Virus record (IMG/VR): IMGVR_UViG_3300027754_000228 | Location: 1-36,984 of that record | Source: a virus | Reading direction: 5' to 3' (one strand) | DNA length: 36,984 bases | Shown here: positions 5,994 through 35,941 of the stretch, piece after piece | Layout: the number at the start of each line of letters is the position of its first letter | Numbering within the stretch: the stretch's first letter is position 1 | Position numbers and translations under genes: made by a program | Notes under the pieces: generated by a model | Databases searched by the model: none | The model's input: the letters and a program-made list of their open reading frames with translations, nothing else | What the model was told of the DNA's origin: nothing

Positions 5994-5995
5994 AC

Positions 5996-6232: not shown

Positions 6233-6441
6233 CGAACTACTGGCGGCTCAAGGCGGCAGTGTTGACGCGGCAACTGGCCATGCAGCAGCTACAGGCTGAG
6301 GCGGAGAAGGTGCAAGCCGCATATGCGGCAGCGATGTTGGCCGAGGGCATGGAGGCTGGGAAGAATTATCAGTTCAACGATGCCGATGAGACCGCGGTCG
6401 AGGTGACCCAGGTGGAATCAGAGTCGAATGATGGCGCGTAA
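6229..6441 (+). CDS. Small coiled-coil protein
   Basis: A 70-residue protein starting at an ATGA overlap. Residues 5-45 form a continuous Gln/Ala/Leu/Glu helix with hydrophobic residues at heptad spacing, so a coiled coil is likely. The C-terminal 25 residues are acidic. It overlaps the next gene by 14 bases. No known family. Small acidic coiled-coil proteins here could be chaperones or assembly factors for the ejection proteins encoded just downstream; that is inference from position. Confidence 0.7.
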   Translation: MTNYWRLKAAVLTRQLAMQQLQAEAEKVQAAYAAAMLAEGMEAGKNYQFNDADETAVEVTQVESESNDGA

Positions 6442-7402: not shown

Positions 7403-8616
7403 TGGCAAAAGACTGGCAAGGACGTACATTTAACGAGGACTGGGAACCCATCGACGCGATGGGTAACAAGACGGGCGAGAAAGATTGGGACGCCAATCGG
7501 TCGTGGAATGAGCAGAACAACCCTGCCGACGTGAACAACTTCTCGCAGGACATTCTCGATCGCACGGGGGGATGGAAGGGGGCACCGGGGACGGGCGTAA
7601 TCGGGATGAACCCTGGTGGGCCCCGCGCCTCTGCCGCCCCCGCCTCGGTTGCGCCTTCGACCTCGTTTGCGTGGGATGACGGTGCCGCGCCGTCTGTCAC
7701 TGCGCCCAACCTCGATGCCGCCGCGATGATGAGCCAACTACAGGGCCCCGCCGCGCTCGGCCAGGTGCAGGGTCCGCAAGCCCTCGCGCAACTTGGCGCA
7801 GCGCCCACGGTGGCGGCGGCGGGGCCCACGTCACAGTTTGGGCAGTCGGTGCAGGGGTCGATTCAGAGCGGCTTGGCGGCCCCAGCGGTCAACGAGAACG
7901 ATCCCGCCTATCGGGCACAGGTGGATGCTTATAACCGCAACTCGCAGCGGTCGGCGGAACGGATGCGGGCCTCGGCGGCCCAGCGAGCGAACGCCACCGG
8001 CACGATCGGGTCGGGCGGGTTCGATGCAGGCGTGAATCGCATCCTCCAGAATCAGGGCGCACAGGAAGCGGACTTTGAAGCGCAGTTGATGCAGAGCGAA
8101 TTGAACGCCGGCCGCGAACGACAGGCGCGGGCGCAACAACTCGGCGCGGGGTTGTTCTCGCAGGAACAGCAGCAGGATCTGACGACTCGGCTGGCGAATC
8201 AGCAGGGCGCTCTCACGGGTATGGGGATGAACAACCAGCGCGACCTGAGCAACCAGAATACGGCCATGCAGACGATCGGCCTGAACTCGGGCCGCGATCA
8301 GGCGAATCAGGCCGCGCAACTCCAGACGCTCGGGATGAACAATCAGCGGGATCTGACGGGCTACGGCGCACAGAACCAGCGCGACCTGACCCGCTATGGT
8401 GGGCAGTTGCAAGCGGGGTTGGCGAATCAAGGCGCACAGATGCAGCAGCGGGGCTACAACCTACAACGCGATCTGGGGTTGAGTGATCTGGACTTCCGGA
8501 ACCGTCAGAGCAATCAGCAGAACGACCAATATTACTCGGGCCTCGGGCAACAGTTGGGGTTGGAGACGGCGCGGTTGAATCAGCAGGCCCTCTTGAGCCT
8601 GATGGGTGGAGGTTAG
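7402..8616 (+). CDS. Putative internal/ejection protein, Gln/Asn-rich repeats
   Basis: A 404-residue protein from an ATG overlapping the previous TAA (TAATG). Residues 1-75 are polar with Trp and Asp. Residues 75-160 are Ala/Pro/Gln-rich. The rest is a long helical Gln/Asn/Ala-rich region in which variants of N-x-Q-R-D-L recur (about residues 275-370), suggesting an extended repeated helix. The end, LNQQALLSLM (392-401), resembles the ten-residue motif of the neighbouring proteins. Position and composition fit a podovirus ejection protein that leaves the virion with DNA; there is no direct functional motif. Confidence 0.75.
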   Translation: MAKDWQGRTFNEDWEPIDAMGNKTGEKDWDANRSWNEQNNPADVNNFSQDILDRTGGWKGAPGTGVIGMNPGGPRASAAPASVAPSTSFAWDDGAAPSVTAPNLDAAAMMSQLQGPAALGQVQGPQALAQLGAAPTVAAAGPTSQFGQSVQGSIQSGLAAPAVNENDPAYRAQVDAYNRNSQRSAERMRASAAQRANATGTIGSGGFDAGVNRILQNQGAQEADFEAQLMQSELNAGRERQARAQQLGAGLFSQEQQQDLTTRLANQQGALTGMGMNNQRDLSNQNTAMQTIGLNSGRDQANQAAQLQTLGMNNQRDLTGYGAQNQRDLTRYGGQLQAGLANQGAQMQQRGYNLQRDLGLSDLDFRNRQSNQQNDQYYSGLGQQLGLETARLNQQALLSLMGGG

Positions 8617-8617
8617 G

Positions 8618-9460
8618 ATGCTGCCAGCAATACTTGCCGGCGCGGGGTTACTCGGGAATCTGTTTGGCGGCACCGCCAAAGGTTCGGCGGCCGAGCGCGG
8701 CAACCAGAACGACTACGCGCAACGCCAGAATCAGCTCGCGCAGCAGCAGTTTGGCACGCAGCAGAACGCGCTGTTGCAGTCCATCCTCGCGGGTGGACGC
8801 GACTCAATAGATCGCTACCAGACCCAGCAGGGCGCGACGACCAGCGCCCTGGGCAACCAGTCGCAGGAAGCCACCGGACGCTACGGGATTCAGCAAGGGG
8901 CCACGACGACCGCCCTGGGCAACCAGTCGCAGGAAGGGCTCCAACGCGCCCGCCTCGGCATGGATTCGGGCACCGCTCGAGCCCGTCAGTCGATCATGGG
9001 GTCGCTCATGGCGAACATGCAGCCGGTGAGTGTGCAAGCGCAAGGGCAAGTGCGCGGACGTGTCCCGGTGATTAGTGGCGGCCTGTCGGCCTCGGCGCTC
9101 AGTCCAGAGACCCGCCAGCACGGATCGGAACTGTCGAAGGCGGCCTTGATGGCGCAGTTGACCGGCAGCGACGTGCCCGCGGCCACGGACTTCAAGAGCG
9201 GCATTCTCAACGCGCCCGCGGCGACAGACTTCAGGAGCGGGATTCTTGACGCACCCGCCGCGACGGATTACAGCAAGGGGATCATGGCCCCGCCGAACCA
9301 GCAGGGCTACCAGAAGGCCGGGAAGGTCGAGTCGATCATGTCCTTGCTCAGCATGATCTTGGGCGGGGCGGGCGCGGTGGGACAGGCGAAGTATGGCACC
9401 AGCATTCCGGGCGTCCCGTTCGATACGACGCCCCCGCCACCGCCAGGATACAGAGGGTGA
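8618..9460 (+). CDS. Putative internal/ejection protein with tandem repeats
   Basis: A 280-residue protein. I chose ATG 8618 because GGAGG lies just upstream. Residues 3-18 are hydrophobic and Gly-rich, a membrane-active N-terminus as seen in podovirus internal proteins. A Gln-rich helix follows, with QQNALLQSIL at 48-57. Two 22-residue repeats start at residue 66, and three 13-residue repeats (PAATDF type) start at residue 187. The C-terminal region has a hydrophobic Met/Leu/Gly stretch and a poly-proline tail. Role in DNA ejection is inferred from composition and neighbours. Confidence 0.75.
   Translation: MLPAILAGAGLLGNLFGGTAKGSAAERGNQNDYAQRQNQLAQQQFGTQQNALLQSILAGGRDSIDRYQTQQGATTSALGNQSQEATGRYGIQQGATTTALGNQSQEGLQRARLGMDSGTARARQSIMGSLMANMQPVSVQAQGQVRGRVPVISGGLSASALSPETRQHGSELSKAALMAQLTGSDVPAATDFKSGILNAPAATDFRSGILDAPAATDYSKGIMAPPNQQGYQKAGKVESIMSLLSMILGGAGAVGQAKYGTSIPGVPFDTTPPPPPGYRG
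8813..8944 (+). repeat. Two 66-bp coding repeats
   Basis: Units 8813-8878 and 8879-8944 both encode R-Y-x-x-Q-Q-G-A-T-T-x-A-L-G-N-Q-S-Q-E followed by three variable residues. The GCCCTGGGCAACCAGTCGCA core is identical in both, so the duplication looks fairly recent. Confidence 0.8.
9176..9292 (+). repeat. Three 39-bp coding repeats
   Basis: Units at 9176-9214, 9215-9253 and 9254-9292 each encode P-A-A-T-D-[FY] followed by a Ser/Lys-Gly-Ile segment. The first two are nearly identical in protein; the third has diverged. The unit repeats in the middle of a putative ejection protein. Confidence 0.85.
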
Positions 9461-9466
9461 CGCATC

Positions 9467-10540
9467 ATGTTTAGTCTCAGTGGACAGGTCGCAGGCGGGC
9501 TGCAGACCGCGCTCGATGAGGTCATGGAACGTCGGCTGCGCGAACAGATGCGCCGGCAGCAGGAGCAGCAGCAGGCCGCGCAACTCGCGTTGCAGCAGCG
9601 GCAGCAGCAAGGCGTGGAAGACGATCGCACCTACCGCCGGGACAATGATCGACGGGTCATCGACCTTGCGGAGATGGAGCGCATCGACGCGAAAGCGCAA
9701 CAGGCCACGGATCGCAACATCAGCCTCGATGCGGCGAACGTGATGAACATGCCGGGGATGACACCACAGGCGCGGGCGGATGAGCTTAACCAGTCCGTGT
9801 TCCGCAACCCGAAGGCGTCCTCGGCTCCCGATATGCGGCGAGTCATCGAGGGGCTGACCAAGCGACCGGATCGGGTGCAATACACCTACACCAACCCGAA
9901 GACGGGCAACCAATCCACTCGGTTTGGGAACCCCGACGAGATGCCGGCCGGTGGGTTTGACATGGGCAACGAACCACAGAAACCCGAACGTGGCCCAGCG
10001 CCCGACTACGAATGGGTGATGCGTAACGGCAAGCCCGTGCAGATTCGCAAGGGCAACGCGCAGATGGGCGACAGCCCTTACGAGAAGGCGGCAGCGGGCA
10101 GCGGGGCCGAAGCGCAAGAGAAGATGCTGACCGCCGCAGACGTGAAGGCCGCGGCGAATGCCCTACTGAAACATAAGGGATTCGAGGGGGCGTTTGGGTT
10201 AGCGAACTCACGGATGCCAACGTTCTCGCAGAATACCGCCGACGCGGAAGCCTTGCGCGACCGTGTGTCGTCGCTGCTGCAACTAGCCAATATGGGCAAG
10301 ATGAAGGGCATCTTGTCCGACTCCGACATGAAGGTAATCAAGTCAGCGAGTACCACGCTGAGTAATCGTCTCTCTGGGAAATCGGCACGGACGGAACTGG
10401 ACCGCGTGATCAAGATCATGGATCGCATCGAGAGCGGGATGCCGGGGATGGATATGGCGACTTCTCGCGACGGCCAACAGGACGACCTGGATGCTGAGAT
10501 CGCCCGCATCCGTGCGGCGAGACGACTGGGAGGGCGGTAG
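9467..10540 (+). CDS. Putative internal/ejection protein, coiled-coil
   Basis: A 357-residue protein. Residues 18-60 form a Gln/Arg-rich coiled coil. The centre (130-200) is polar with Asn, Gly and Pro. The C-terminal part (about 215-330) contains GFEGAFG, then T-F-S-Q-N-T-A-D-A and G-I-L-S-D-S-D-M-K, a pattern I have seen in phage internal proteins of unknown function. GAGGGTGA overlaps the previous stop and serves as ribosome site. It overlaps the next gene (start GTG at 10540) by one base. An ejection-complex role is inferred from its place in the block. Confidence 0.75.
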   Translation: MFSLSGQVAGGLQTALDEVMERRLREQMRRQQEQQQAAQLALQQRQQQGVEDDRTYRRDNDRRVIDLAEMERIDAKAQQATDRNISLDAANVMNMPGMTPQARADELNQSVFRNPKASSAPDMRRVIEGLTKRPDRVQYTYTNPKTGNQSTRFGNPDEMPAGGFDMGNEPQKPERGPAPDYEWVMRNGKPVQIRKGNAQMGDSPYEKAAAGSGAEAQEKMLTAADVKAAANALLKHKGFEGAFGLANSRMPTFSQNTADAEALRDRVSSLLQLANMGKMKGILSDSDMKVIKSASTTLSNRLSGKSARTELDRVIKIMDRIESGMPGMDMATSRDGQQDDLDAEIARIRAARRLGGR

Positions 10541-11835
10541 TGGAACAAGATCGCCTTTCCGATCAGGCGCTCCTCAAACTGCTCGACAGCAACGATGATG
10601 TGTCGTTCCTGACGCCCCAAGAGAAGCAGCGCATGGTGTCGCTGGCGAATCCGTCAGCGGGTGGCCCTCCTGAACCGTCCGTGATGGACGAGCGCGGGAT
10701 GGTGGATCGTGCGGTCGATTACCTCCCGGCTGCACTCAGCACAGGCATGGGGTTTCTGGGCGGCACGAAACGCACGCTCCCAGGCGCGGCGTTGGCTGGC
10801 CTCGGCGGGGCTGGTGGCGAAGGGCTGCGTCAGACGGTGCGAGCCATGCAGGGGCGCACGGATGAATATCCCGACACCCCGGCCGGCCAGCTGCGCCGCA
10901 TGGGCGAATCAGGTGTGGGAGGGGCCACGACGGAACTCGGTGGTCGTGCGGTCATTGGGGGGCTCAAGCGGTTGGCTCCATCCTTTATGCGTTCGGCGTT
11001 TGGCGCACAGACGCAAGTGCGTAAGGCGTTTCCGGACGTGGACCTCGAGCGAGCGGCACTGGATGCGCGAGCGATTCCAGGGTCCACCCGGTCGATGAAC
11101 GCTGTGCAACAGGCCGGGCAACAGGGCGCGGCCACGCTCCGCAACGACCTCAAAGTCATCGACATTGCCTCTGGGAATGCGCCTGTGGCGTCCCACGCGG
11201 ATGCCGTGTCGGTGCTGCGTCGTAGAGCGCCGGATGCACGCATGGGGGCTCGCGGTGGCGCTCCGGCGGAACTCAACGCGGTCAAGGATGGCTTACGCCA
11301 AGTTCGCGACATGAGAGGGCGACCCCTCAACGCCGAGGAAACATTTGTGGCTAAGCAGGCGCACCAGCGTGCGGGAGCCGCCGCGCAACGATCGCAAGCC
11401 GGTGCCGAGGCCGAAGCTGGCGCAGAAGTCAGCAGCGACATCGGTCAAGGATTGGTGGCGGCCCTGAAGGCGAAGCATCCAGAAATCGAAGCGCAACTCA
11501 GCACGCAGCAGGGGCTGATGGCGCTGCAACGGGCGATGGAGAACGCGCAGACACGGACGCCCCTATTGCGGACGATTGCCTCCAATACCGCAGGCGCGGG
11601 TGCGGGCGCGGCGATTTACGGAGCTACGGGCGACCCGCTCTCGTCGCTCTTAGCGGCGGCGGCGGTGCCAGCGGTGACCCACGCCGTGACCTCTCCCGCG
11701 AGTTTGGCTCGGATGGGTATCACGTCCGATGCGGGCGCACGCATGATGCAGTCCGCCGGGGCGCGTATCCCAGACGCACTGTTACGGAAACAGTTGCTTG
11801 AGCTCTTGAGCGGTAAATACCAAGGGCAGGAATGA
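10540..11835 (+). CDS. Putative internal/ejection protein with membrane-active segments
   Basis: A 431-residue protein from a GTG sharing its G with the previous TAG. Residues 6-15 (LSDQALLKLL) resemble the cargo motif of the proteins at 6428, 29287 and 32151. Residues 60-100 are Gly/Ala/Leu-rich and could insert in a membrane, as could the segment near residues 345-385. Between them lies a long Arg/Ala-rich helical region. Last gene of the ejection block, directly before the lysis enzyme (ATGA overlap). The size and composition suit a protein that forms part of a trans-envelope channel; this is inference. Confidence 0.7.
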   Translation: MEQDRLSDQALLKLLDSNDDVSFLTPQEKQRMVSLANPSAGGPPEPSVMDERGMVDRAVDYLPAALSTGMGFLGGTKRTLPGAALAGLGGAGGEGLRQTVRAMQGRTDEYPDTPAGQLRRMGESGVGGATTELGGRAVIGGLKRLAPSFMRSAFGAQTQVRKAFPDVDLERAALDARAIPGSTRSMNAVQQAGQQGAATLRNDLKVIDIASGNAPVASHADAVSVLRRRAPDARMGARGGAPAELNAVKDGLRQVRDMRGRPLNAEETFVAKQAHQRAGAAAQRSQAGAEAEAGAEVSSDIGQGLVAALKAKHPEIEAQLSTQQGLMALQRAMENAQTRTPLLRTIASNTAGAGAGAAIYGATGDPLSSLLAAAAVPAVTHAVTSPASLARMGITSDAGARMMQSAGARIPDALLRKQLLELLSGKYQGQE

Positions 11836-14155: not shown

Positions 14156-15259
14156 TTATTGCGTTTTCTTTCGTGTTTTTTTGAGTGCCCCTTGATCGTG
14201 GTTTCGGTGTTTAAAATCCAGCATATTTGACTGTTTCTGACCCGTGCCACGTTTTGAAAACGTGGCACGGATGGCCTCAGCCATGCGGTCTTTCACCGCC
14301 GACTGAGCATACCTCGCGGTCTGGGCGGGCGTCGAATGCAGGGCCAGGTGAGAGACGGCGTGGATGTCGCCGGTCTTCCGGTAGACCTCGGTCAGAAACG
14401 AGTGGCGCAGGTCGTAGGCGCGGATGCTCTTCGGGATGTCCTTGCGCGTGGCACGGGCGTTCCTCACGGCGTTGCGAAACGCCTTCGCCGAGCTCGACCG
14501 AGAGAACTCGCCCCAGCAGTCGGCGGCCGCGAAGTCCTTGAAGGCTTGCACGGCCTGTGGGGAGAGCGGCAGGGTGCGCCCTGGTGATCCTTTCCCCTTG
14601 CGCCGGGGACTGACGCGCACGGTCTTGGCCTTCAGGTCCACATCGGCCGGCGTGAGTTGGGCGATCTGCGCTTGGGGGAGGCCGGTGTAGGCCATGACGG
14701 CGAAGCGGGCGCGGCTCTGAGTCGGCCCCATCTGGTCGAGGATGGCCGTGATGACCGAATAGGGGAGGCTGCGGGGCGTGTCGTAGCGTTCCCTGACCTT
14801 CGGCACCTCTCGGACGGGGTTGTAGCCGCTGGCCCCGCTGAGGCTCTTGTAGAGGCTGCTGAGCACTTGGCGGCGGTGGTTGAGGGTGGAAGGGGCGTTG
14901 TGCCAGGCGGCCAGTTGCTGGCGCACGTCCACGGCGGTGATGGCGTCTCGGTGGCGGTCGCCAAACGCCGTCACCCAGTGGGTGAGGATGTCGTCGGCGT
15001 CGGCCTTATGGCGTCCGGTGAGGGTCGAGAGGTAGGTGGCGGCGTCGGCGCGGAGGGTGTCGGCGGTGGCTTCCTCGCGCTCGAGCTTGAGCGCCCCGGC
15101 CTGCTTGAGCGTCAGCCGTTCCTTGATGAGCTCGGCCACGTCGGAATCGTGGGGGCAGCGGTATTCGTGGGGCTTGCCGTTGACCGAAACGATCACGGCG
15201 ATCCCGATGGCATCCCGAAAGATGCCGGTGGCGATGCGTTGACGTAACCCTCTCGGCAT
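14156..15259 (-). CDS. int: Tyrosine recombinase (phage integrase)
   Basis: A 367-residue protein. Residues 60-150 form a core-binding SAM-like domain. The catalytic domain (about 165-325) has the Lys-rich beta hairpin (RRKGKG, 219-224), YDLRHSF (282-288; Arg285), His308 and the nucleophile Tyr317 in HSTPAQTARY. The usual first catalytic Arg of TG-x-R is replaced: here the text is TGLPQAQ, with Pro195. It reads toward the attP-like tRNA half 30 bases beyond its stop. The 172 bp upstream (15260-15431) probably hold its promoter. It integrates the phage at a host tRNA-Arg gene by inference. Confidence 0.85.
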   Translation of the reverse strand: MPRGLRQRIATGIFRDAIGIAVIVSVNGKPHEYRCPHDSDVAELIKERLTLKQAGALKLEREEATADTLRADAATYLSTLTGRHKADADDILTHWVTAFGDRHRDAITAVDVRQQLAAWHNAPSTLNHRRQVLSSLYKSLSGASGYNPVREVPKVRERYDTPRSLPYSVITAILDQMGPTQSRARFAVMAYTGLPQAQIAQLTPADVDLKAKTVRVSPRRKGKGSPGRTLPLSPQAVQAFKDFAAADCWGEFSRSSSAKAFRNAVRNARATRKDIPKSIRAYDLRHSFLTEVYRKTGDIHAVSHLALHSTPAQTARYAQSAVKDRMAEAIRATFSKRGTGQKQSNMLDFKHRNHDQGALKKTRKKTQ

Positions 15260-25485: not shown

Positions 25486-25710
25486 ATGGCGAAAACGTTC
25501 CATGTTGGGGATCGGGTGGTATGGACGCCGGTCGTGTCTCTGGCCGGCCCCTACCAGGCTGTGATTGACTGGATATTTCCGAGCGGTCGGATTCGGATCA
25601 ACGTCCAGTTGAATGGGCCTTTTGACTTCTTCGTGATCACCACGCATCGGCGGCTGGACCGGGACAAAAGTGGGGGGGGTATATCCCGCAGAAAGTTTTG
25701 GGGGGCCTGA
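25486..25710 (+). CDS. Small SH3-like protein, putative
   Basis: A 74-residue protein with GAGG in GTGAGGTAA before the ATG. Residues 5-55 alternate strands and turns (VGDRVVWTPVV, AVIDWIFPSGRIRINV), like a small SH3-type barrel. The basic C-terminus ends in a Gly/Arg run. The stop shares one base with the large terminase ATG (TGATG), suggesting translational coupling. Function unknown. Confidence 0.6.
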   Translation: MAKTFHVGDRVVWTPVVSLAGPYQAVIDWIFPSGRIRINVQLNGPFDFFVITTHRRLDRDKSGGGISRRKFWGA

Positions 25711-26654
25711 TGGGGGTGATCGGGTCGGGGCCGGTGCAGGAACTCACGGCGTCACTGGCGCAGTGCTGTTGGTGTGGGGACCGCTTGTTCCGAGCGAAGC
25801 AGGGCGGGGTGTGGGGGCCGTGGGGGTGTTGCCGGCCGGGGTGCTGGGACCGGCAGATGGCGTGGTCGGTGCGGACAGCGGACGGGTGGTTGTTTTGTCC
25901 GGTGCCGAAGCAGGTGGAGTTTTTTGAGGCGACACGGCGGGCGCAGCGGGTGTTGTTTGGCGGGGCGGCGGGGCCGGGGAAGAGTCATGCGCTCCGGTGG
26001 GGGTTGTATCGGGATGCGCTGCGGATTCCCAATCTGAACTGTTTGCTGTTGCGGCGGACGTTTAAGGAGTTGGACCAGACGCACTTGCGGGATATGGCGC
26101 GGGAAGTCGAACCGATTCTGGGCGGGCGGTATTTGTCGGGGGACAAGGTGGCGAAGTTCCCGAATGGCAGTGTGATCCAGGCGGGGCATTGCGAGTCAGA
26201 GAGTGACGCGATGCAGTACTTGTCCACCGAATACGACCGGATTGTGTTTGACGAGCTCGTCACCTTCCCGATGGGCACGGCGCTGGAGATTATGTCTCGC
26301 GCCCGCACGTCGAAGCCGACGGTGATTGAGGAGGGCGGGGCGCAGGTGTGGGCGGGGAGTAACCCTGGGGGCCGCGGGGCGTTGTGGGTGAAGAGTTTCT
26401 TCGTGGACCGGGTGGTGGACCCGGAGGAGTTCCCGCACTACGACCCGAAGCGGTATGCGTATGTGGATGCGCGGCTGAGTGATAATCCGTACATCGATCC
26501 CGCCTATCGGCAGACGCTCGAGGAGTTGCCCGCGATGCGTCGGCGGCAGTTGCTCGAGGGCGACTGGCTCGCGTTTTCTGGTCAGTTCTTTGATTGGTTG
26601 CCGACGAAGGACGGGCAGCCGTGGCATGTGGCGGATGGAGGGCTGACGGCATGA
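25710..26654 (+). CDS. terL: Terminase large subunit, ATPase half
   Basis: A 314-residue protein from ATG 25710. Walker A is GGAAGPGKS (84-92), Walker B is RIVFDE (177-182) and motif III is VWAGSNPGG (213-221). These drive DNA translocation. The protein ends after the linker region, and the nuclease is a separate gene overlapping by ATGA (26651-26654) in another frame. Unusually, the N-terminus has a Cys cluster (C19, C20, C23, C40, C41, C45), a likely zinc knuckle. TTG 25698 is possible, but ATG with GGGGGG upstream fits better. It works with the portal to fill the head. Confidence 0.88.
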   Translation: MGVIGSGPVQELTASLAQCCWCGDRLFRAKQGGVWGPWGCCRPGCWDRQMAWSVRTADGWLFCPVPKQVEFFEATRRAQRVLFGGAAGPGKSHALRWGLYRDALRIPNLNCLLLRRTFKELDQTHLRDMAREVEPILGGRYLSGDKVAKFPNGSVIQAGHCESESDAMQYLSTEYDRIVFDELVTFPMGTALEIMSRARTSKPTVIEEGGAQVWAGSNPGGRGALWVKSFFVDRVVDPEEFPHYDPKRYAYVDARLSDNPYIDPAYRQTLEELPAMRRRQLLEGDWLAFSGQFFDWLPTKDGQPWHVADGGLTA

Positions 26655-27271
26655 GGGTGAGTGACCTGCGCGTCGGCCTCGGCCTCGACTGGGGGAACGC
26701 CTCGCCTGGCTGCGTGGTCTTCGCCGCGGCCCTCCCGAACGGCCACGTCCACGTCTTCGATGAATACAAATTCCAACGCATGACCGCGAAAGACGTGGCC
26801 GCCGCGGTCAAAGAGAAGTGCGCGGACTGGGGCTTATCGCGGGTGCCGTCCTGTGCGTGTGATCCGTCGCTGCTGCCGGCCACCACGGGGGAGCAGGGCG
26901 AGTGGATCGGCCTGACGCTGATGCGGCATGGCTTGCCGGTGCATCGGGTGTCGAATGACCGGGTGAACGGCTGGCAGCGGGTGCATGAGGCGCTGGCGAT
27001 TGACCCGATCACCGGCACCCCGTGGCTCACCGTGCATCCCCGCTGCAAGTATGGTTCACGCACGATCCCGCTGATGGTGCAGTCGCGCAACAACCCCGAA
27101 GACCTCGATTCTGACAGCGACGATCATTTTGCCGACAGCCTCCGCTATCTGCTGATGGGGGGCTTGCGACCGGACACCGGCCGCAGGACACCCGCAGAAG
27201 TGCCAGCCTACAGCGGGGCGTGGTGGCGCAAGATGAGCGGGAACCGTAATGCTCGAGGAGTCCTCGCCTAA
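26651..27271 (+). CDS. terL: Terminase large subunit, nuclease half
   Basis: A 206-residue protein from an ATGA overlap with the ATPase gene. It has the RNase H-like nuclease pattern: VGLGLDWG with Asp13, CACDPS with Asp71, and DSDDHFADSLRYLL with Asp162, the metal-binding acids that cut DNA at packaging start and end. Normal large terminases carry this domain on the same chain. The halves abut with no missing residues, so this may be a true gene split, a frameshift site or a sequencing indel. The two halves differ in codon tone (see findings). Confidence 0.85.
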   Translation: MRVSDLRVGLGLDWGNASPGCVVFAAALPNGHVHVFDEYKFQRMTAKDVAAAVKEKCADWGLSRVPSCACDPSLLPATTGEQGEWIGLTLMRHGLPVHRVSNDRVNGWQRVHEALAIDPITGTPWLTVHPRCKYGSRTIPLMVQSRNNPEDLDSDSDDHFADSLRYLLMGGLRPDTGRRTPAEVPAYSGAWWRKMSGNRNARGVLA

Positions 27272-29285
27272 CCCGCCGACTGCGCCCGCGCCTGCGCCTG
27301 CGTCGGCCCCGCCGTCCGCCGTGCGTCCGCTGTCGCCGGAGGATCTGACCTTTTGGCGAGCGGAAATTGACCGCGCCCGCACCCTGCGGAACGACGTGAT
27401 TGCCCGGTGGGATAGCGTCGGCAATCTGGAACGCTACACCCCGGAATCGGTCAAGACGAACAACAACCTGCTCGATGCGCGGGTGAACGTCGCCAAGGAC
27501 TTTTCGGACGTGGAGCGCAAGAAGGCCGCGCTGTTCTACGACACGCCCGAAATTGCGCTGGTGCCGGACCCCGGCACCGATGGGTCGCTGCTCCCGCTCC
27601 ATGCGGAGTTCCTGAATACGTTGCTCTCGAGCAAGCAGATGGACGCAAAAGCGACCGTGCTGCCGACGATTCAGGATTGTCTGGTGGCGTTGCAGCCCGT
27701 GCCCACGGAAATTGGCTACAACTCGGTCACGGTGCAGGTCGAACAGCCGGTGGTGGACCCGATGACGGGGCAACCGGCGATCGATCCGATGACCGGGGCC
27801 CCGCAGATGCAGTCGGTGCCGGTGATCGTCTGGGAAGAGTTCTTCTGGCGGCGGGTGAGCCCGAAAGCGCAGTTGATCCCCGTCCAGATGCGCGACACGA
27901 TCTACGACCGGGCCCCCTGGTTGGCGTTTGAGTGGCGCAAACCGTTGTCGCAGGTGCGCCGGCAGTTCCAACTGCCCGAGACGTTTACCGGCGGGGGAGA
28001 TAGTGGTCGGGAACGGCCCTATTTCCAGCCCATTGGCGCGTCCACAGAAGACAGCGAACCGATGGTCAGCGGCGTCAAGCTCTGGTATCGAGCCGCGTTT
28101 CGTGATCCCGAGGTCACGCACCCCGAGATCATCCGCGAGCTCGAGCTCATTGAGGGCTACGACCTGCCGGTGGTGCATCGAGACTCTCCGTATCAGTCGG
28201 TGAACCCGCAGACCGGCCGGCTGACGCCGGATTCGCTGACCGGCTACCCGGACCACCCGCTGGCGTTGCGGGATCTGACGGATTCGCCCTATGTGGCCGC
28301 GGATTGCACCCTGACCGGCCCGTTGACGCGGGAACTGAACAAGTCACGGACGACGAACATCCAGCAGCGCGACGGGTCGAAGCTGCATGTGTTCTACGAC
28401 CCGTCCAAGGTCAATGAGGACGTGCGCTCGCAGATTGAACAGGGCGATGCCCCGACGATGATCCCGGTGATGCCGGGGGCGCTCGATGGCGGCACCGACC
28501 GCATGATGGCGCAAGTGCCGGCGTTGCAGCAGTCTCGGGATTCGTTCACCACGCAGCAAATCATCGAACACGACCGGGCGGATATTCTCGGGATTAACTC
28601 CAACACGGTCGGCGGCAGTTCGCGGGGGTCCAAGACCGCGACCGAAGTCCAGAACGTCCAGCGCAACACCGACGCCCGCTTTGAGCAGGAACGTCAGCGG
28701 GTGCTGGAGTGGTGGATTAAGGGCGTCCAGAAGCTCTCGGCGCTCGTCCTGCGCTACGGCGACCGCCTGGCGGTGGAAATCCTCGGCCCGCAGCGGGGGC
28801 AGCAGTGGGTGCAGAGCAAGGCGCAGTTCGGGCCGTTCAGTTTTGAGGTCGTGATCGACTCCGGCAATTACACCGACATCGAATCCCGCAAGCGCCAAGA
28901 TTTGCAACTCTATAACTTGACCGCCAAAGACCCGACGCTGAATCGGAGTGTGGTGCAGGCGCGATTGGCGACGGACTTTGGTCTGAACCCCGCCGAATGG
29001 CTGATCACGAAGCAGCCGGAAGATAAGCCGGAAGCACCGACCGTCTCGATTGCCGTGAAACCTGAAGATCTCGATCCGGCGCTGCCGTCGTATGTGGGCA
29101 CCTACGCGATCTTGACGGCGGGGGGAGTCAAAGGCTTACCCCCGCCCCAACCGATGATGGGCATGGCCCCACCGCCGCAGCAACCGAATCAGCCCGGTCA
29201 CGGCGGCATGGCGGAACTTCAGCCGCGGCTGAACCAGCACCAGATGGATGAAAGCGGAGCAAACCCCGGACCAGCGGTGAACTGA
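27249..29285 (+). CDS. Portal protein
   Basis: A 678-residue protein. The N-terminus is Pro/Ala-rich (1-30). A helical region follows with RKKAALFYDTPEIALVP, a pattern of podovirus portals, then a wing with P-M-T-G-Q repeats (180-200). The centre and C-terminal half hold long helices (about 430-510, SRGSKTATEVQNVQRNT) for the stem and crown. A Pro/Gln-rich tail ends it. Portals form the dodecameric DNA gate at one capsid vertex and bind terminase and adaptor. It overlaps the nuclease by 23 bases and precedes cargo genes, as in P22-like phages. Length suits the family. Confidence 0.85.
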   Translation: MLEESSPNPPTAPAPAPASAPPSAVRPLSPEDLTFWRAEIDRARTLRNDVIARWDSVGNLERYTPESVKTNNNLLDARVNVAKDFSDVERKKAALFYDTPEIALVPDPGTDGSLLPLHAEFLNTLLSSKQMDAKATVLPTIQDCLVALQPVPTEIGYNSVTVQVEQPVVDPMTGQPAIDPMTGAPQMQSVPVIVWEEFFWRRVSPKAQLIPVQMRDTIYDRAPWLAFEWRKPLSQVRRQFQLPETFTGGGDSGRERPYFQPIGASTEDSEPMVSGVKLWYRAAFRDPEVTHPEIIRELELIEGYDLPVVHRDSPYQSVNPQTGRLTPDSLTGYPDHPLALRDLTDSPYVAADCTLTGPLTRELNKSRTTNIQQRDGSKLHVFYDPSKVNEDVRSQIEQGDAPTMIPVMPGALDGGTDRMMAQVPALQQSRDSFTTQQIIEHDRADILGINSNTVGGSSRGSKTATEVQNVQRNTDARFEQERQRVLEWWIKGVQKLSALVLRYGDRLAVEILGPQRGQQWVQSKAQFGPFSFEVVIDSGNYTDIESRKRQDLQLYNLTAKDPTLNRSVVQARLATDFGLNPAEWLITKQPEDKPEAPTVSIAVKPEDLDPALPSYVGTYAILTAGGVKGLPPPQPMMGMAPPPQQPNQPGHGGMAELQPRLNQHQMDESGANPGPAVN

Positions 29286-29286
29286 G

Positions 29287-31557
29287 ATGCTGCTGAACGA
29301 GGAGCAGGAACTCGAGCAGGACGCCTTACTCGCGCAGTTAGGCATCCAGCCGCCTCCGCGCCCTGATGTGAAAACGAAGAACGCCAAGATGCTCGAGGCG
29401 CTCAGGGCGCTGGTCGATGCCGGCGCTCCGCAGCGTCCGGTGGTGTCAGGGCCGCGCCCCCCATCGCTCGGTGGTCGGCGTCTCCCTGATCTGCCTCCCG
29501 AGGGCGGCGAAATTCTCGGACGCGCCAAGAGCCTGCCGGATTTCCTGAATAACACCCCGCTCGGGCTGTTGGGCGATGTCAGCAACCCGATGGAGAACAT
29601 GGACGCGGCGGGCCCGGTGGCGGGCGTCGTTAAAGGTGCCGCGGCGACGGCGAAGTCGGCCACGCGGGCGATGCTGGACGAGGCATTCCCGACGTTCGAC
29701 GCCTACGCGAAAAAGAAGGGGTTCCTACAGCCGCAGACCGTGCTGGAGCGGTTGCTCGCGCATCCGTCCGCGACACCAGAGATGATCGCGAAGGCGGAAG
29801 CGATGGTCGCGAACGGTCAGAAACTAAAACCAGCCGAAGTGGTGGACGTGCTGAGTGGCGTGAAACATGACCGCGGACGTGTGCTGAGAAAAGGCGTCTC
29901 GCAAGTCACGAAGGAGAACATCCCTGGTGCGCCCCTCTGGGTCACGTCTCCCGCAAAGGAACGCGAAGCGGCTGATGGCTACCTGCAACTGATGGAAGAG
30001 GGAGCGCCAGGGCGCAACTTCTATCGCGATTCAGGGGCGAAGTTGTTTCACCTCAGTGGTGAGAATGCCGACACCGCCAACCTGCTCGGCATCGGGGCGT
30101 CAGCCACGTCACCGACCACAAGTGTCGGCGCGAATACCGGGTTTATATTCAAGGGTCACGGGCAGGCTGTCGCGGGTGTGCCGGTTAAAACGGGACGATT
30201 CCCCGGCAATATGTCGAAGCCCATCACGGCCGCGCACGCGGGCGACAACTCGACATACCTCGGGCCGAAGCGTGATCCGTTCGTGCGACAGATCGCGATG
30301 GGCGGTGGCTATGCGACACCAGAGCAGATGACCGACCGTGCGGTTCACGACATCTGGGAAGGCGAAGCGTGGAAGTACGTCGAGCCAGACGGTACTCCGA
30401 TCCGCCGTGGGTTCACGCCTGCGGAGCATCGGTGGATGGACAAGATGACCGATCAGGCCATCGTGGACGCCAACAAACGTCAGGTGGCCGGCTTCACTGA
30501 CTGGGACGCGGGAACCGGGCAGGCGTCAACGTGGACGGGCGCAAAGATCCGTGCCGGCGATATTGAACCGGGAGACGCAGCGAAGTCATTTGCCGACTAC
30601 ACGCCACGCTACGAGATGCAGATGGGTCGCGAGTCGCGGCCTGGCACATCGACAGGGCACCTGGCCGGCTTAAAAGACCTACCACCAGCCGTGCAGCAGG
30701 AGTATCACGATGGCGTGATGGCGATCACACTGGACGCCAAGGGGCGTGATCGGTCTTGGCTGGAAAAGGGGTTACCGAGTGAAGGCAGTACGCATGGCCC
30801 CGGCGTGTTTGAGAACGAGATCTCGCCAGGCACCCAAGTGAAGAACATTGTCGGCACCGAAGGCTCCGGGAAGACACGACAGGTGGAAGCGGCCAACATG
30901 GGGTTAGCGCGGGCCAACGAAGCGGAGTACGCACTGCTGAATGTGCAGAACGCGATGGCCGGCAACATGCTGAACGATGGGGCGCTCGCCGCAGAGCGAG
31001 ACATGTTCGACCTGGTCAAGCCGTCAGGGAAACTCGCCGAAGGCGATGACGTGTTGACGCATCCGCGCATCCAGCAGGAACTCATGGCCGGCAATGGCGG
31101 CAATGTGGCGGTCATGCCGATTGACCAGGGTGCAAGGGTCAAGAACATCGGGATGCCGCAGTCCGACTTCGCGTCGTTGATTAAGCAGTTGACGACAGAT
31201 ACGAGCGGCAAGTCGGTCGCCGGGAAAGATATGGGGTTCTACGAGAACCTGCCGTGGAACACGCCGGATAACGAGGTGGGTCAGTTGTATGCGCGGATCA
31301 TCCGCGATGAGATCCCGAACGGCAAGGCCCTCTTCAACAAGAGTGCGCCCGCGAGAGCGCAGGCGCGGCATGACTACGATGCCCAGTTCGCGACGAAGTA
31401 CAACTTGCCCGTCAACGAGAAAATCCAAGAGCTACGCAGAGCGATCGCGCAGCACGGGTTCGATGGCGTCAATCTGGTTGCGAAGAAGTACGGTCTACCG
31501 CTGGCGGCGGTGATGCTGATGGTCCAGCAGGCGATGGGCGAGGAGCCAGCTTCGTGA
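29287..31557 (+). CDS. Large putative virion cargo protein (polyvalent type)
   Basis: A 756-residue protein. Residues 9-18 (LEQDALLAQL) are the cargo motif. Then come a Pro-rich segment, an Ala/Gly-rich region (about 95-125), and a large central part (about 200-690) with KLFHLSGENADTANLLGIG, then IFKGHG and MSKPITAAHAGDNSTYLGP, and later KNIVGTEGSGKTRQVE. It ends with AKKYGLPLAAVMLMVQQA, similar to the end of the protein at 32151. I recognise no enzyme; the look is of phage polyvalent proteins delivered with DNA. The GSGKT (about 520) is a P-loop-like string, but no Walker B partner is seen. Confidence 0.65.
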   Translation: MLLNEEQELEQDALLAQLGIQPPPRPDVKTKNAKMLEALRALVDAGAPQRPVVSGPRPPSLGGRRLPDLPPEGGEILGRAKSLPDFLNNTPLGLLGDVSNPMENMDAAGPVAGVVKGAAATAKSATRAMLDEAFPTFDAYAKKKGFLQPQTVLERLLAHPSATPEMIAKAEAMVANGQKLKPAEVVDVLSGVKHDRGRVLRKGVSQVTKENIPGAPLWVTSPAKEREAADGYLQLMEEGAPGRNFYRDSGAKLFHLSGENADTANLLGIGASATSPTTSVGANTGFIFKGHGQAVAGVPVKTGRFPGNMSKPITAAHAGDNSTYLGPKRDPFVRQIAMGGGYATPEQMTDRAVHDIWEGEAWKYVEPDGTPIRRGFTPAEHRWMDKMTDQAIVDANKRQVAGFTDWDAGTGQASTWTGAKIRAGDIEPGDAAKSFADYTPRYEMQMGRESRPGTSTGHLAGLKDLPPAVQQEYHDGVMAITLDAKGRDRSWLEKGLPSEGSTHGPGVFENEISPGTQVKNIVGTEGSGKTRQVEAANMGLARANEAEYALLNVQNAMAGNMLNDGALAAERDMFDLVKPSGKLAEGDDVLTHPRIQQELMAGNGGNVAVMPIDQGARVKNIGMPQSDFASLIKQLTTDTSGKSVAGKDMGFYENLPWNTPDNEVGQLYARIIRDEIPNGKALFNKSAPARAQARHDYDAQFATKYNLPVNEKIQELRRAIAQHGFDGVNLVAKKYGLPLAAVMLMVQQAMGEEPAS

Positions 31558-31687
31558 TGGCCCCAGGGTACCCGTGCTGTTGCACCTTGGCCTTCAGCGC
31601 AGGATCTGGGTCAGCATACGGGCCATCGAGTGACGGGTCGTCTCCACTGGCCCACCGTCGCCCTGCGGCATCGATGTAAATAGTCAT
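31469..31687 (-). CDS. Inverted small gene (moron candidate)
   Basis: A 72-residue - strand protein from ATG 31687 with CGGAG upstream and a TAGAAT box 10 bases further. The first 45 residues look real (MTIYIDAAGRRW, then DPSLDGPYADPDPALKAKV); the rest is Pro/Ser-rich. It overlaps the end of the + strand cargo gene by 89 bases. A lone reversed gene with its own signals in a late operon is typical of morons, genes expressed from the prophage. Function unknown. The start could also be GTG/ATG further upstream, but no site supports it. Confidence 0.45.
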   Translation of the reverse strand: MTIYIDAAGRRWASGDDPSLDGPYADPDPALKAKVQQHGYPGAITKLAPRPSPAGPSASPPPAVDRTSSQPD

Positions 31688-31758
31688 GACTCCGATTCTA
31701 TCGCGGACCCACAGCGCAAGCGTAATCAACGTATGTGGATACGTGTATAAGTGAATTC
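31688..31758. promoter_or_regulatory. Divergent control region with palindrome
   Basis: Between the reversed gene and the next + strand gene. It contains ACGTAT-GTGG-ATACGT (31729-31744), a perfect 6-base inverted repeat, and TATAAG (31746-31751) just before the + strand ATG. On the - strand, TAGAAT serves as a possible -10 box for the reversed gene. The palindrome could be an operator or a small hairpin. Confidence 0.45.
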
Positions 31759-32154
31759 ATGATTTGCGACATCTGCCACGCGGAAATACACGTCGGGGAT
31801 TGGCCGTTTTGTGACGTGGGCGGCGGACACAGCCGCGGCACGAATACCGTCGTGGCCGATGACGTGCCTGGCGGGTTCGTGGTCGAGAACGGCTTCGACC
31901 GCCCCACACGTTTCGACAGCAAATCGGATCATCAACGCGCCTTAGCTGCTCGAGGGCTCGAGTTGCGCGTCAAGAATGCCGGCCCCGAGGACAAGATCAT
32001 CTCCCGCTGGGATACGGTCGATCTCGACGCGGCCAAGACGTTGCTGGAGCGTGGCCCCCAGGCGCGGCGTGAGAGGGCTGACCGCTGGCCGCTGGCGACC
32101 GAACCGATCACCGTCACGGTGGGCGGGGTCATTACGTCCAAGGATCTTGCGTGA
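31759..32154 (+). CDS. Zinc-ribbon protein of the head cluster
   Basis: A 131-residue protein from ATG 31759. CDICH (residues 3-7) and W-P-F-C (15-18) with following Gly/His form a zinc knuckle of the type found in small phage proteins next to portal and capsid genes. The middle is acidic and the C-terminus Arg-rich. The GTG 31735 start would add eight residues but has no ribosome site. It overlaps the ADP-ribosyltransferase-like gene by GTGA. Role unknown. Confidence 0.65.
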   Translation: MICDICHAEIHVGDWPFCDVGGGHSRGTNTVVADDVPGGFVVENGFDRPTRFDSKSDHQRALAARGLELRVKNAGPEDKIISRWDTVDLDAAKTLLERGPQARRERADRWPLATEPITVTVGGVITSKDLA

Positions 32155-33338
32155 CGAATCCGCTGGAGCGGGACGCGCTGTTGTCACTGCTCGCGGGTGG
32201 CCGTATGGAGCAGTCACGGGGGCCGATGATGCGGAACCCGACGCCCGACTGGCTGAAGCGGGAGAACGACAGCGTGTTCGATTCCATGCCTGAGAAGGCA
32301 GCGAAAGCGCTGCTGCGGCTGTTGGGTGCCGACGACCCGAGCGGTCAGGTGATTGGCATCGCCGCTCCGGTGGAGGTGCCTGGTGGTGTCGCGTCACCCC
32401 TGAAACGGGCGGCTGATGCTGTCGGTGGCGCGGTCAAGAAAGGCATCAAAGCCTTTCACGGCTCCCCGCATGACTTCGACCAGTTTTCGTCGGCCAAGAT
32501 CGGGACGGGCGAAGGAAACCAGTCTTATTTACGTGGGCTGTACATGGCCGAGAAGCCCACGGTTGGGCGCGACTATCGGGACATGTCGCCTGTGGCGGAT
32601 CGTGCTTCCGGTAAACCACTCGATACAGACCTTCGCATCGGTGGAAAGCTGGTTCATGAGTTATATGCAGACATCGAGCGTAAGGCAGCGCGGCTGTCGA
32701 ACAAGGATGCCGAGCCTTTGTATGAGCAATTGTCTGGTCTTGAGTCACTAATGCAGCACGGTGATTTCCTCGGGGTTCAGGAAGCTGCTGAGGCCGGTCA
32801 GGTGACGCCGAGGGCGATGGAGTGGATGAAGTCCATCGAGCCAAAGTTCACGCGCAAGGGCAAGCTTTATGAAGTCTCCATCAACGCCGATCCCGAGGAC
32901 TTCCTCGATTGGGATGCGCCCCTGAGCCAGCAGAGCGAGAAGGTGCGGCAGAAACTACCCGCCTACTTGCAGCCGCAAGAAGGGGAAAGCATGGGCAACT
33001 CGCTGCGAAGGATTCGGATAGACGAAGACCCGGAAGAGAGCCTACGCGCTGCTGGTATCCAGGGCATTAAGTATCTTGACGAAGGCTCCCGTGGGCCATC
33101 GCTTCGCATTGGTCTTTTAAAAGACAGAATTGCGAGAGAGAAAGCCCAAGGTCTTCCGTTTGACCATTGGCAGCAGGAACTGGACGCGCTTGAAAAAACG
33201 CAGTCCACTCGCAACTACGTCGTGTTTGATGACAAGTTAATCAGCATCGTGAAGAAATACGGCATTGCCGCCGCGCTCAGTGGTGGCCTCATCAATCAGG
33301 CGCAAGCCGCCCAACTCAAGAAACAAGGGCACCAGTGA
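32151..33338 (+). CDS. ADP-ribosyltransferase-like virion cargo protein
   Basis: A 395-residue protein from GTG 32151. Residues 5-14 (LERDALLSLL) are the cargo motif. KGIKAFHGSPHDFDQF (97-112), KIGTGEGNQSYLRGLYMAE (about 116-134), GIKYLDEGSRGPS (about 300) and NYVVFDDKLISIVKKYG (about 358-374) form the pattern of phage ART-type polyvalent domains. The H of HGS and the Tyr of GLY are expected NAD-site residues. The C-terminus resembles that of the protein at 29287. Probably ejected with DNA to modify host proteins; activity and target are inferred. Confidence 0.75.
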   Translation: MTNPLERDALLSLLAGGRMEQSRGPMMRNPTPDWLKRENDSVFDSMPEKAAKALLRLLGADDPSGQVIGIAAPVEVPGGVASPLKRAADAVGGAVKKGIKAFHGSPHDFDQFSSAKIGTGEGNQSYLRGLYMAEKPTVGRDYRDMSPVADRASGKPLDTDLRIGGKLVHELYADIERKAARLSNKDAEPLYEQLSGLESLMQHGDFLGVQEAAEAGQVTPRAMEWMKSIEPKFTRKGKLYEVSINADPEDFLDWDAPLSQQSEKVRQKLPAYLQPQEGESMGNSLRRIRIDEDPEESLRAAGIQGIKYLDEGSRGPSLRIGLLKDRIAREKAQGLPFDHWQQELDALEKTQSTRNYVVFDDKLISIVKKYGIAAALSGGLINQAQAAQLKKQGHQ

Positions 33339-33763
33339 TCATTTCCCCCCACGGCAAAGCCCCGCAGCTACAGGTCATGTCCAGCGTCCAGATCAACGCG
33401 ATCCTGGGACTGGAACAGCTGATCCACGCCACCGGCTTGATTCTGACCTGCCCGACCTGTGCCGCGGACGGTCATCCCCAGTTGGACACCGACAACGCCC
33501 CCGAGTCGCCCGTGTGGAAGATTGATTGCGGCTGCCGGCACCGACGGGTCCAGAGCACGGATGTCGGGCGGGCGATGGATGCCGATGGCGAGCTCATGCT
33601 GTCGGCGGAGAGCATCCTGTCGTCCCTGAACCTTGTGCTGCGCTGCCCGGAGAGACGATGCCTCACCCACCACCTGGAAGTCACACGGGAACCGGAGGCG
33701 GTGATTGTCCGCTGCCGGTGCGCGAAGACGACGCTCCGCGCCCCCCAGCCGACCCGCCACTAG
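33335..33763 (+). CDS. Cys-rich hypothetical protein
   Basis: A 142-residue protein from a GTGA overlap. CPTC (39-42), C-G-C (65-67), C-P-E-R-R-C (about 103-108) and C-R-C (about 126-128) give at least eight cysteines and a likely zinc fold with two ribbons. A helix lies between (Met/Ser/Leu). No family. Placed between the ART-like gene and the scaffold, it may be a small virion or assembly factor. Confidence 0.6.
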   Translation: MIISPHGKAPQLQVMSSVQINAILGLEQLIHATGLILTCPTCAADGHPQLDTDNAPESPVWKIDCGCRHRRVQSTDVGRAMDADGELMLSAESILSSLNLVLRCPERRCLTHHLEVTREPEAVIVRCRCAKTTLRAPQPTRH

Positions 33764-33924: not shown

Positions 33925-34941
33925 TTGGAAGACACGACTGGCGGATCGTCCGCTGTTGCAGAGGCCCCAGCTTCGGCTGGTGCGAGTAGTCCGACGGTTT
34001 CGGCCGATAGACCGACCTCATTCGCGGAAGCGATGGCGTCGGTGGGAGATGCGGCCCCTCCCGATCCCGGTGACCCGGTTCCTGTAGGGCAGACACCGCC
34101 CGTGGCCGCGACAGCGCCACCGCCCACCGCAGACCTCGCACCGGATGCGTCCGTTCCGACCGCTGATCCCAAGGGCCCGATCCCGTTCGACCGTCACGAA
34201 AGCGCATTAAAGAATGCGCGGACGAAAACGGCGTCCGAGATCACCCAGCAGTTTCAGCAGCAGTACGGCGCTCACGTTGAGCTCGGGAACAGGTTTCAGG
34301 CCGATCCGATTGGGACGATGACGCAACTCCTTCAGGAGTTCAGTCAGCATCCCGAGTATGGCCCCCAGGTCGCTGCCATCGCTGCCCGCACCCTCGGTGC
34401 GCGGCGGGGACAACAGCAGCCGCAGGTGGCTGAGGATACGGAACCACAAGCCGACTATCAGATGCCAGACGGCGAAGCGTTTACGTCAGCCAGACGATTG
34501 GCTGAAATTCGCGCCTACGACCGCCAGCAGATTCTGAAAGAAGTCGGGGAGATGGTGCAGCCGCTGAAGCAGCGGGAACAGCAGCAAGTCGCGCAGGAGC
34601 GGTATCAGGAAGCCACGCAGGCCGCCCACGACCGCATGAGCAAGGTGCTGGCCCCCTACAAGGCGCTGCCTGAATTTACCGAACACCGGCCCGCGATTGC
34701 GGCGAAGGCCAAGTCCTACATGGACGAGGGCCACGACCCGCAAACGGCGTTGGGGTTGGCGGTGACGAGTGTTCTACGTGAGACCGTGATGCCCAGTCGG
34801 ACGGCCCAGAGTCAGCAACAGTTGATGGCCCGAGCGGTAGCGAAATCTACCGGGTCCACCAACGCTCCGGGTACGTCTCCTGCCGCTCCCGCCGGCCGTC
34901 CGCAATCGTTTGCGGAAGGCTTTGGCGCGATTGCGATGTAG
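33925..34941 (+). CDS. Capsid scaffolding protein, putative
   Basis: A 338-residue protein from TTG 33925. AAAGGA eight bases upstream decides this start. Residues 1-95 are Pro/Ala/Ser-rich. The middle is helical with Gln and Glu (about 105-160 and 200-260), a coiled-coil layout usual for scaffolds, which guide coat assembly and then leave. DRPTSFAEAMA near residue 28 and GRPQSFAEGF near 325 are alike, so a short motif appears at both ends. It directly precedes the coat gene. Assignment rests on composition and order. Confidence 0.7.
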   Translation: MEDTTGGSSAVAEAPASAGASSPTVSADRPTSFAEAMASVGDAAPPDPGDPVPVGQTPPVAATAPPPTADLAPDASVPTADPKGPIPFDRHESALKNARTKTASEITQQFQQQYGAHVELGNRFQADPIGTMTQLLQEFSQHPEYGPQVAAIAARTLGARRGQQQPQVAEDTEPQADYQMPDGEAFTSARRLAEIRAYDRQQILKEVGEMVQPLKQREQQQVAQERYQEATQAAHDRMSKVLAPYKALPEFTEHRPAIAAKAKSYMDEGHDPQTALGLAVTSVLRETVMPSRTAQSQQQLMARAVAKSTGSTNAPGTSPAAPAGRPQSFAEGFGAIAM

Positions 34942-34963: not shown

Positions 34964-35941
34964 ATGGCAAATCCGAACGTGGGCCAGCAGGTCGCGGCCC
35001 AGTGGCAGAAGGTCATCGGGAGCAAGCCCGAAGACAACATCTTCAAGGAATACTCGTTTCTTGCGCTGCTCGAGAAGAACGGCGCGGCTCCCGTCACCGG
35101 CGGTCGGTCGTTCATCGGGACGATTGAATACGCGGTGAACACCACCGTCAAGGCGATCAGCGATACCGAGTCGCTCGATGTCACCCGTGTCGATGTGTTT
35201 GACGAAGCGGAATACACCGAGCGCCAGTATGGCGGCGTCTTCGTGATCTCCACCTTCGAGGAAGCGATCAACCGCGGGTCGTCGCAGAAGATCGACCTGC
35301 TCGCCGGCAAAGCGGAGAACCTCCGCCAGTCGATGCGGAAGCAGATCAACAGCGATGCCTTCGCGGCCGGCACCGGCTTCGGCGGCAAGTCGCTCGGCGG
35401 CCTCCAGGTGCTGGTCCCGGATGATCCGACCACGGGCACCCGTGGCGGCATCAACGCGGCCACCTACACCTTCTGGCGCTCACAGCAGACCTCGGGCGCG
35501 AAGACCACCTCGGCCTACGACAACCTGCGCTCCTCGATGCGGACGATCAACGTCGCCTGCTCGCTCGGCCAGGGCAACACCACCCCGACCCACTTCCTGA
35601 CGGGTTCGGGCACCTGCAACGGCTACGAGTCGATTCTCGTCGCTAACGAGCGCATCGTCAGCAAGGAGAAGTCGCAGGCCAATGCGGGCTTCGATGACGA
35701 TGCCTTTATGTTCAAGCAGGCCAAGGTGGTCTGGGACAACGACTGCGCCGACTCGCGCATGTATGCGCTGCGGTTCGGGCAGAACGGCTTGCGACTGGCC
35801 TATCAGTCGGGTCACTGGTTCAAGGCGTATCCCGCCGTGGACCCGGCCAACCAGTTGCTGGACGTGGTCAAGATCGAGACCATCTGCCAGTTGGTGACCT
35901 TTAACCCGCGCCACCTCGGCGTCGTAACCAGCATCTCGTAG
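34964..35941 (+). CDS. Major capsid protein
   Basis: A 325-residue protein with AGGGG upstream. Its N-terminal arm, a spine-like helix (SSQKIDLLAGKAENLRQS, 109-126), a central beta-rich part and an end with QLVTFNPRHLGVVTSI suit an HK97-fold coat. It follows the scaffold and precedes a beta-rich decoration-type gene. Codon use is strongly biased to C- and G-ending codons (GGC, ACC, GAC), as for a highly expressed gene. The HK97 fold is inferred from size, position and pattern. Confidence 0.8.
   Translation: MANPNVGQQVAAQWQKVIGSKPEDNIFKEYSFLALLEKNGAAPVTGGRSFIGTIEYAVNTTVKAISDTESLDVTRVDVFDEAEYTERQYGGVFVISTFEEAINRGSSQKIDLLAGKAENLRQSMRKQINSDAFAAGTGFGGKSLGGLQVLVPDDPTTGTRGGINAATYTFWRSQQTSGAKTTSAYDNLRSSMRTINVACSLGQGNTTPTHFLTGSGTCNGYESILVANERIVSKEKSQANAGFDDDAFMFKQAKVVWDNDCADSRMYALRFGQNGLRLAYQSGHWFKAYPAVDPANQLLDVVKIETICQLVTFNPRHLGVVTSIS

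Follow-up and report, generated by a model that had tools for sequence, protein, structure and literature searches.

Between the portal and scaffold genes of the phage studied here lie two large genes whose products look alike at their ends and differ in their centres, and the question is what such a pair does beside the head genes. The window, i.e. the whole stretch of 36,984 bases that was analysed, covers an entire virus record and has an exact 127-bp repeat at both termini, so that the genome is probably complete. Judged from its gene content, it belongs to a temperate, podovirus-like phage. Among its 47 predicted proteins are an integrase (14156-15259), ERF and YqaJ recombination proteins, an SU10-type adaptor, and a cell-wall hydrolase. 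The two genes occupy 29287-31557 and 32151-33338, as the first-pass annotation had it; all genes are named below by their first position. The features relevant to the question, including a ten-residue terminal motif referred to as the tag and an ADP-ribosyltransferase (ART) domain, are as follows.

6428-7402, + strand: internal-cluster protein, 324 aa, with the tag at both ends (LDQDALLAQL; MEQDALLQLLGAV-stop); motif match
7402-8616, + strand: internal-cluster protein with C-terminal tag LNQQALLSLMGGG-stop; motif match
8606-9460, + strand: internal-cluster protein with looser internal motif copies QNALLQSI and KAALMAQL; motif scan
9467-10540, + strand: ejection-protein homologue; phrog_2534 'released from the phage upon host infection', E = 3e-10
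10540-11835, + strand: internal-cluster protein with N-terminal tag LSDQALLKLL; motif match
27249-29285, + strand: portal protein, upstream border of the cargo slot; phrog_15554, E = 0.0018, and homologues
29287-31557, + strand: putative cargo protein 1, 756 aa, with N-terminal tag, centre and hydrophobic, ART-like C-end
29311-29340, + strand: tag LEQDALLAQL of 29287 (residues 9-18)
31735-32154, + strand: small conserved Cys-rich protein, found after the portal in relatives and here separating both cargo genes
32151-33338, + strand: putative cargo protein 2, 395 aa, with tag, disordered linker, predicted ART-PolyVal domain (~98-371) and tail
32163-32192, + strand: tag LERDALLSLL of 32151 (residues 5-14)
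33335-33763, + strand: small conserved Cys-rich protein, downstream border of the slot
33925-34941, + strand: scaffold-like protein by its position before the capsid gene, candidate tag receptor
34964-35941, + strand: major capsid protein (MCP); phrog_9953, E = 7.5e-44

The internal-protein cluster spans 6428-11835 and includes 9467, which is homologous to podoviral ejection proteins (phrog_2534). The large terminase (25698-27271) is encoded by two ORFs, one for the ATPase and one for the nuclease, in the window and in contigs L107, L087 and L096, and by a single fused gene in L007 and L099. In L004, the terminase nuclease ORF (6064-7668) contains an intein-like insert (DDHA-CFVAGT...VSN-CDALRYL), within which an HNH-like ORF (6924-7472) lies in a different frame.

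The ten-residue motif that both genes had been said to begin with was found as described: LEQDALLAQL and LERDALLSLL are identical in 7 of 10 residues. The search pattern [DNQ]ALL.[LQ][LM] matched six times in the window proteome, in five of the 47 proteins and always at most 25 aa from a protein end: in 6428 (both ends), 7402 (C-end), 10540 (N-end), 29287 (N-end), and 32151 (N-end). In 2000 within-protein shuffles, the mean was 0.0175 matches and the maximum one. The consensus reads L-x-[QR]-[DQ]-A-L-L-x-[LQ]-L. A short terminal peptide is thereby common to unrelated, presumably virion-internal proteins, as is the case for the T4-type capsid targeting sequence; the phrog_2534 homologue 9467 itself is devoid of the motif. 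At positions where two tag copies agree in residue, their codons match in 39% of cases versus 35% expected from codon usage. This agreement is near chance, which argues against recent DNA copying as the source of the tags. Randomised synonymous codons, together with retention of the tag in orthologues, point to selection on the peptide. In an AF2 model of 32151, the tag forms a helix (residues 4-16, pLDDT about 66) followed by a disordered linker.

The retention in orthologues was examined with a position matrix built from the six window sites only, so that all relatives were out-of-sample. The best matches in relatives fell at places equivalent to the window sites. Namely, in L089 (MCP 79% identical) the C-ends of 16368 (MDQEALLKQLQA-stop) and of the 7402 orthologue 17067 (LDQQAMMALLGG-stop) scored 22.3 and 18.9 bits, respectively, and the N-ends of both cargo proteins of L007 scored 23.0 and 12.4 bits. 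The 6428 orthologue in L089 has kept both tags, the N-terminal one in a weaker form, and the 10540 orthologue in L108 retains ISDAALLRLL. Tags persist in orthologues whose linkers are unalike. In the far relative L109, weaker forms occur (LRRDAILRGL at an N-end, ARLALLKLMGED at a C-end), with scores near chance level. The scaffold-like protein 33925-34941 also has motifs of this kind close to its two termini (DRPTSFAEAMASVGD; GRPQSFAEGFGAIAM-stop). These end motifs are kept in L004, L007, L087, L088, and L102, and are possibly the coat-binding motif of that protein.

The ADP-ribosyltransferase-like centre noticed earlier in one member of the pair belongs to 32151, which we predict to be an ART-PolyVal ADP-ribosyltransferase. 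Its match to Pfam PF18760 (E = 1.3e-4, 23.1 bits) stays below the curated cut-off of 31.2, and the second cargo protein of L007, which has its C-end in common with 32151, reaches 45.0 bits. BFVD matches of 32151 include named ART-PolyVal proteins, with E-values down to 2e-13. The conserved HG, KIGTGEG, GLY, YEV, and NYVVFD positions are present in 32151 in an alignment of 20 sequences. Among the conserved residues of 32151 is His103. The AF2 model gave pLDDT values of >85 in most blocks of the ART core and a weak tail; a PDB fold search with 32151 returned no significant match. The second L007 cargo protein (5957-6727) reads KEYAVFD where most ART-PolyVal members read RNYVVFD, a place that we take to resemble the catalytic Glu region of PARPs.

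The long centre of 29287, reported earlier as unassigned, has kept that status: no Pfam match at E<1, no PHROG match and no known polyvalent-associated domain were found. When 29287 was compared with PDB, Pfam, PHROGs, phage records, viral contigs, and 69 genomes from the family to which the L107-containing bin belongs, a homologue emerged in L107 only, with 95% identity and a dN/dS of 0.11. The contig L107 (CAMDBX010000166.1), a near-identical phage, is part of a MAG labelled Rhizobium sp. Q54, which is a label only and no established host. A profile search with 29287 added L046, L117, and L118, members of another phage lineage, whose 764-769-aa proteins have the core (~351-515) in common with 29287 and differ in N-terminal sequence. 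The L046 homologue is likewise without a Pfam or PHROG match. In other phages, too, members of the 29287 family adjoin the portal gene. An AF2 model of 29287 from two sequences had a pLDDT of 36. The L048/L047 cargo has a 'FYNN...TADTH' domain; its presence in 29287 was considered and dropped at an hhalign probability of 0.6%.

The similarity of the C-terminal segments (VAKKYGLPLAAVMLMVQQAMGEE versus IVKKYGIAAALSGGLINQAQAAQ), also claimed in the first-pass annotation, was confirmed with one correction. The two segments gave a shuffle P of 0.005 as a single pair and came joint third among the 1081 pairs of C-ends that the proteome offers. When 19 ART tails, none of them from the window phage, were made into a profile, the last 60 residues of 29287 scored 16.3 bits, and none of 2000 shuffles of the final 45 residues came as high (best 12.7). 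Across 4288 C-ends from all loci, with ART proteins and one ART fragment set apart, at least 11 bits were reached only by 29287, by its copy in L107 and, in L064, by a protein of 661 aa that adjoins the ART of this contig. None of the reversed sequences reached 11 bits. In 32151, however, the ART domain itself extends to the KKYG helix, and what follows is a flexible tail. The C-end is therefore constant mainly in the sense that 29287 has an ART-like tail. This likeness is real but modest, and weaker than the N-terminal one.

The closest comparison of the stretch from the portal to the small gene of the 31735 type covered five relatives. The stretch is without cargo in L089 and L087 and holds one 80-aa ORF in L088. 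In L107 (93% nucleotide identity), 29287 is retained along with the beginning of the ART, whose sequence differs after about residue 137; this contig stops within the ART gene, so that the C-end is not covered. L007 (MCP 82% identical) has two ART-family proteins directly 3' of the portal, both starting with the tag. They match over about 130 residues at the N-terminus (56%, E = 2e-40) and over the final 42 (60%, E = 4e-14), and their centres differ. Swappable centres between constant ends at the same place, as proposed for this locus, are thus borne out by the L007 pair and by the change in the L107 ART. The opposite pattern, conserved centres with unconserved ends, was also seen in part, since the 29287-type centre is kept in L046, L117, and L118 and the N-terminus differs. 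Among more distant relatives, the slot is empty in L097 and L099 and holds unrelated small genes in L098, L102, L103, and L105.

The window ART lies a gene further downstream, with 31735 and 33335 as its immediate neighbours; genes of these two types overlap directly in L087 and L089. In L118, a 29287-type gene follows the portal directly, and in L046 the order is portal, ART, 29287-type, so that an ART plus a 29287-type gene beside the portal recurs in two lineages. The L046 ART has the same 25-bp junction CAGCCGATGGGGGTGCAGTGATGGC on both flanks, which shows that it was gained or lost as a unit. The L046 portal (7497-9725) and ART (9722-10831) both end in QPMGVQ, because this gene junction is repeated. 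ART genes enter and leave the slot as whole cassettes.

Three further podovirus lineages point in the same direction: in each, the ART cargo has its own phage's terminal element in common with ejection-cluster proteins. In G003 (L002), an LPD23 protein and the ART have a long common N-region with NALM, and NAL[LMI] occurs at the ends of the ART, the LPD23 protein and two ejection-cluster proteins; these include a phrog_2534 ejection protein (E = 6e-21) with the N-end RNALIDF and a further cluster protein with the C-end RNALLMLP. In G080, the ART and two cluster proteins next to it bear NAL[LMY] at their ends, six copies in all. The end-motif tests gave P = 0.002 for each of these two phages, the floor of 500 shuffles. 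The cultured podovirus phiGT1, which infects a Sulfitobacter host, has its ART, phiGT1_5, between portal and scaffold, and the ART N-region aligns to the injection protein phiGT1_19 (shuffle P = 2e-4, best of 17 annotated proteins compared). Also, an ART and a 660-aa protein beside the portal of G079 have their N-ends in common. In a pairwise test of N-end sharing on near-complete contigs, 3 of 15 phages were individually significant (combined Fisher P 7e-4), and a cruder test on 62 loci, including fragmentary ones, gave five with P < 0.05 versus three expected. Terminal sharing was undetectable in most other ART contigs tested. That podoviruses generally sort injected effectors by lineage-specific terminal tags shared with their own ejection proteins is accordingly offered as a plausible but tentative generalisation. 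Repeats of possible other tag types were seen in ART proteins of the fragment contigs L024, L029, and L056 (repeated PVDHDPF, N-terminal in all three and additionally C-terminal in L024 and L056), in 27176 of L090 (FDPxKPFE-like) and in 9496 of G081 (NPADALFADL, twice). On the fragment contigs, VDHDPF and other short repeats could be traced to no protein besides the ARTs.

Taken as a whole, the locus probably encodes packaged and injected accessory effectors, 29287 and 32151, which are sorted by a lineage-specific tag and lie in a slot for swappable cargo. Both would be made late, together with the head proteins, and recruited into the procapsid by the helical tag, which the internal proteins of the phage also bear at their N- or C-ends. 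The tag probably binds scaffold or coat. The cargo would exit through the portal along with the DNA, and 32151 may ADP-ribosylate a host target early in infection, with another job for 29287. Because only the ends would be needed for sorting, the slot could gain, lose and swap cargo. That scaffold or coat recognises the tag and so directs its bearers to the head would be the simplest account; it builds on the precedents of T4 and P1 and on the scaffold dependence of P22 ejection proteins. ARTs beside head genes have been predicted to be packaged (PMC9503650; PMC5512222).

The strongest rival, which we consider unlikely, takes the tag for an assembly contact of a trans-envelope conduit, where ejection proteins and effectors dock, and not for a head-entry signal. 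A conduit requires repeated contacts, and the tag is predicted to be helical and occurs on ejection-cluster proteins, once at both ends. The cargo would have to enter the head first, however, and its single N-terminal copy resembles known head-targeting leaders (PMC12373910; PMC9024508). Slightly less credible is an action of the cargo in the producing cell or lysogen, in lysogenic conversion or exclusion of rival phages, with the tag merely docking it to head assembly. The phage is temperate, and an ART could modify host targets late, but the cargo genes lie within the late head operon, from portal to scaffold, with overlapping starts and stops, which is the setting where packaged ARTs are predicted (PMC9503650).

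It is far less probable that the common ends are a by-product of recombination, in which new genes join via short homologous ends and the peptide is functionless. The repeated 25-bp junction at the cassette gain in L046 and the long common N-ends in L002 and L007 would fit such an origin; codon sharing hardly above chance among the window tags, their occurrence at C-ends and their retention behind unalike linkers speak against it. An equally improbable reading is that the tag is the cleavage site of a prohead protease. T4 targeting leaders are removed by gp21, and the tag is terminal. Several tags, however, are so near the C-end that cutting would release few residues, and no prohead protease was found among the head genes scanned in the window.

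The head-targeting account matters since the entry of internal and effector proteins into the heads of short-tailed phages is poorly known. The tag gives a direct mutational test of head entry, allows injected anti-host proteins of uncultured phages to be predicted and is a possible handle to load reporter proteins into small phage heads. If the principle is general, virion effectors could be found from sequence alone via the phage's own tag at protein ends.

Among known systems, the internal proteins of T4 (IPI-III, Alt) are similar in that a short terminal leader is shared by otherwise unrelated proteins, and in their variable cargo locus; in Ip1-3, the N-terminal packaging leader is the sole common part (PMC12373910). 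T4 internal proteins are injected with the DNA and Alt is an ART; the window phage has an ART cargo whose injection we infer. Unlike in T4, the window tag is also found on proteins of the internal/ejection cluster and can be C-terminal, and the phage is a small podovirus with no protease detected among the genes scanned. In P1, an N-terminal signal of DarB brings large anti-restriction proteins into the head, and 30 N-terminal residues of DarB suffice for packaging (PMC9024508). No common packaging signal could be found among the Dar proteins (PMC9024508), whereas the window phage has one tag common to several proteins. The polyvalent proteins with ART-PolyVal (PF18760; Iyer et al., 2017, PMC5512222) resemble 32151 in their domain, in gene location beside head genes and in predicted packaging. 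The window cargo differs from them in consisting of short single-effector proteins in a cargo slot, and the accessible part of PMC5512222 makes no mention of terminal tags for polyvalent proteins. Procapsid entry of P22 ejection proteins depends on the scaffold and on N-terminal portions of gp7 and gp20 (PMC8402733). P22 and T7 resemble the window phage in an internal gene cluster after the tail genes, which in the window includes a phrog_2534 homologue. The scaffold-dependent entry known in P22 uses signals in long N-terminal parts of gp7 and gp20; unlike for the window phage, no short shared tag is reported in the P22/T7 literature surveyed. Encapsulin cargo-loading peptides are short terminal peptides that sort cargo into an HK97-fold shell, and are alike in this respect, with no homology claimed. 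Packaged ARTs (PMC9503650; PMC5512222) and T4 targeting leaders are already known. New in the literature searched are one short tag, at either protein end, shared by swappable effectors and a podovirus internal cluster, and its differing variants in other lineages.
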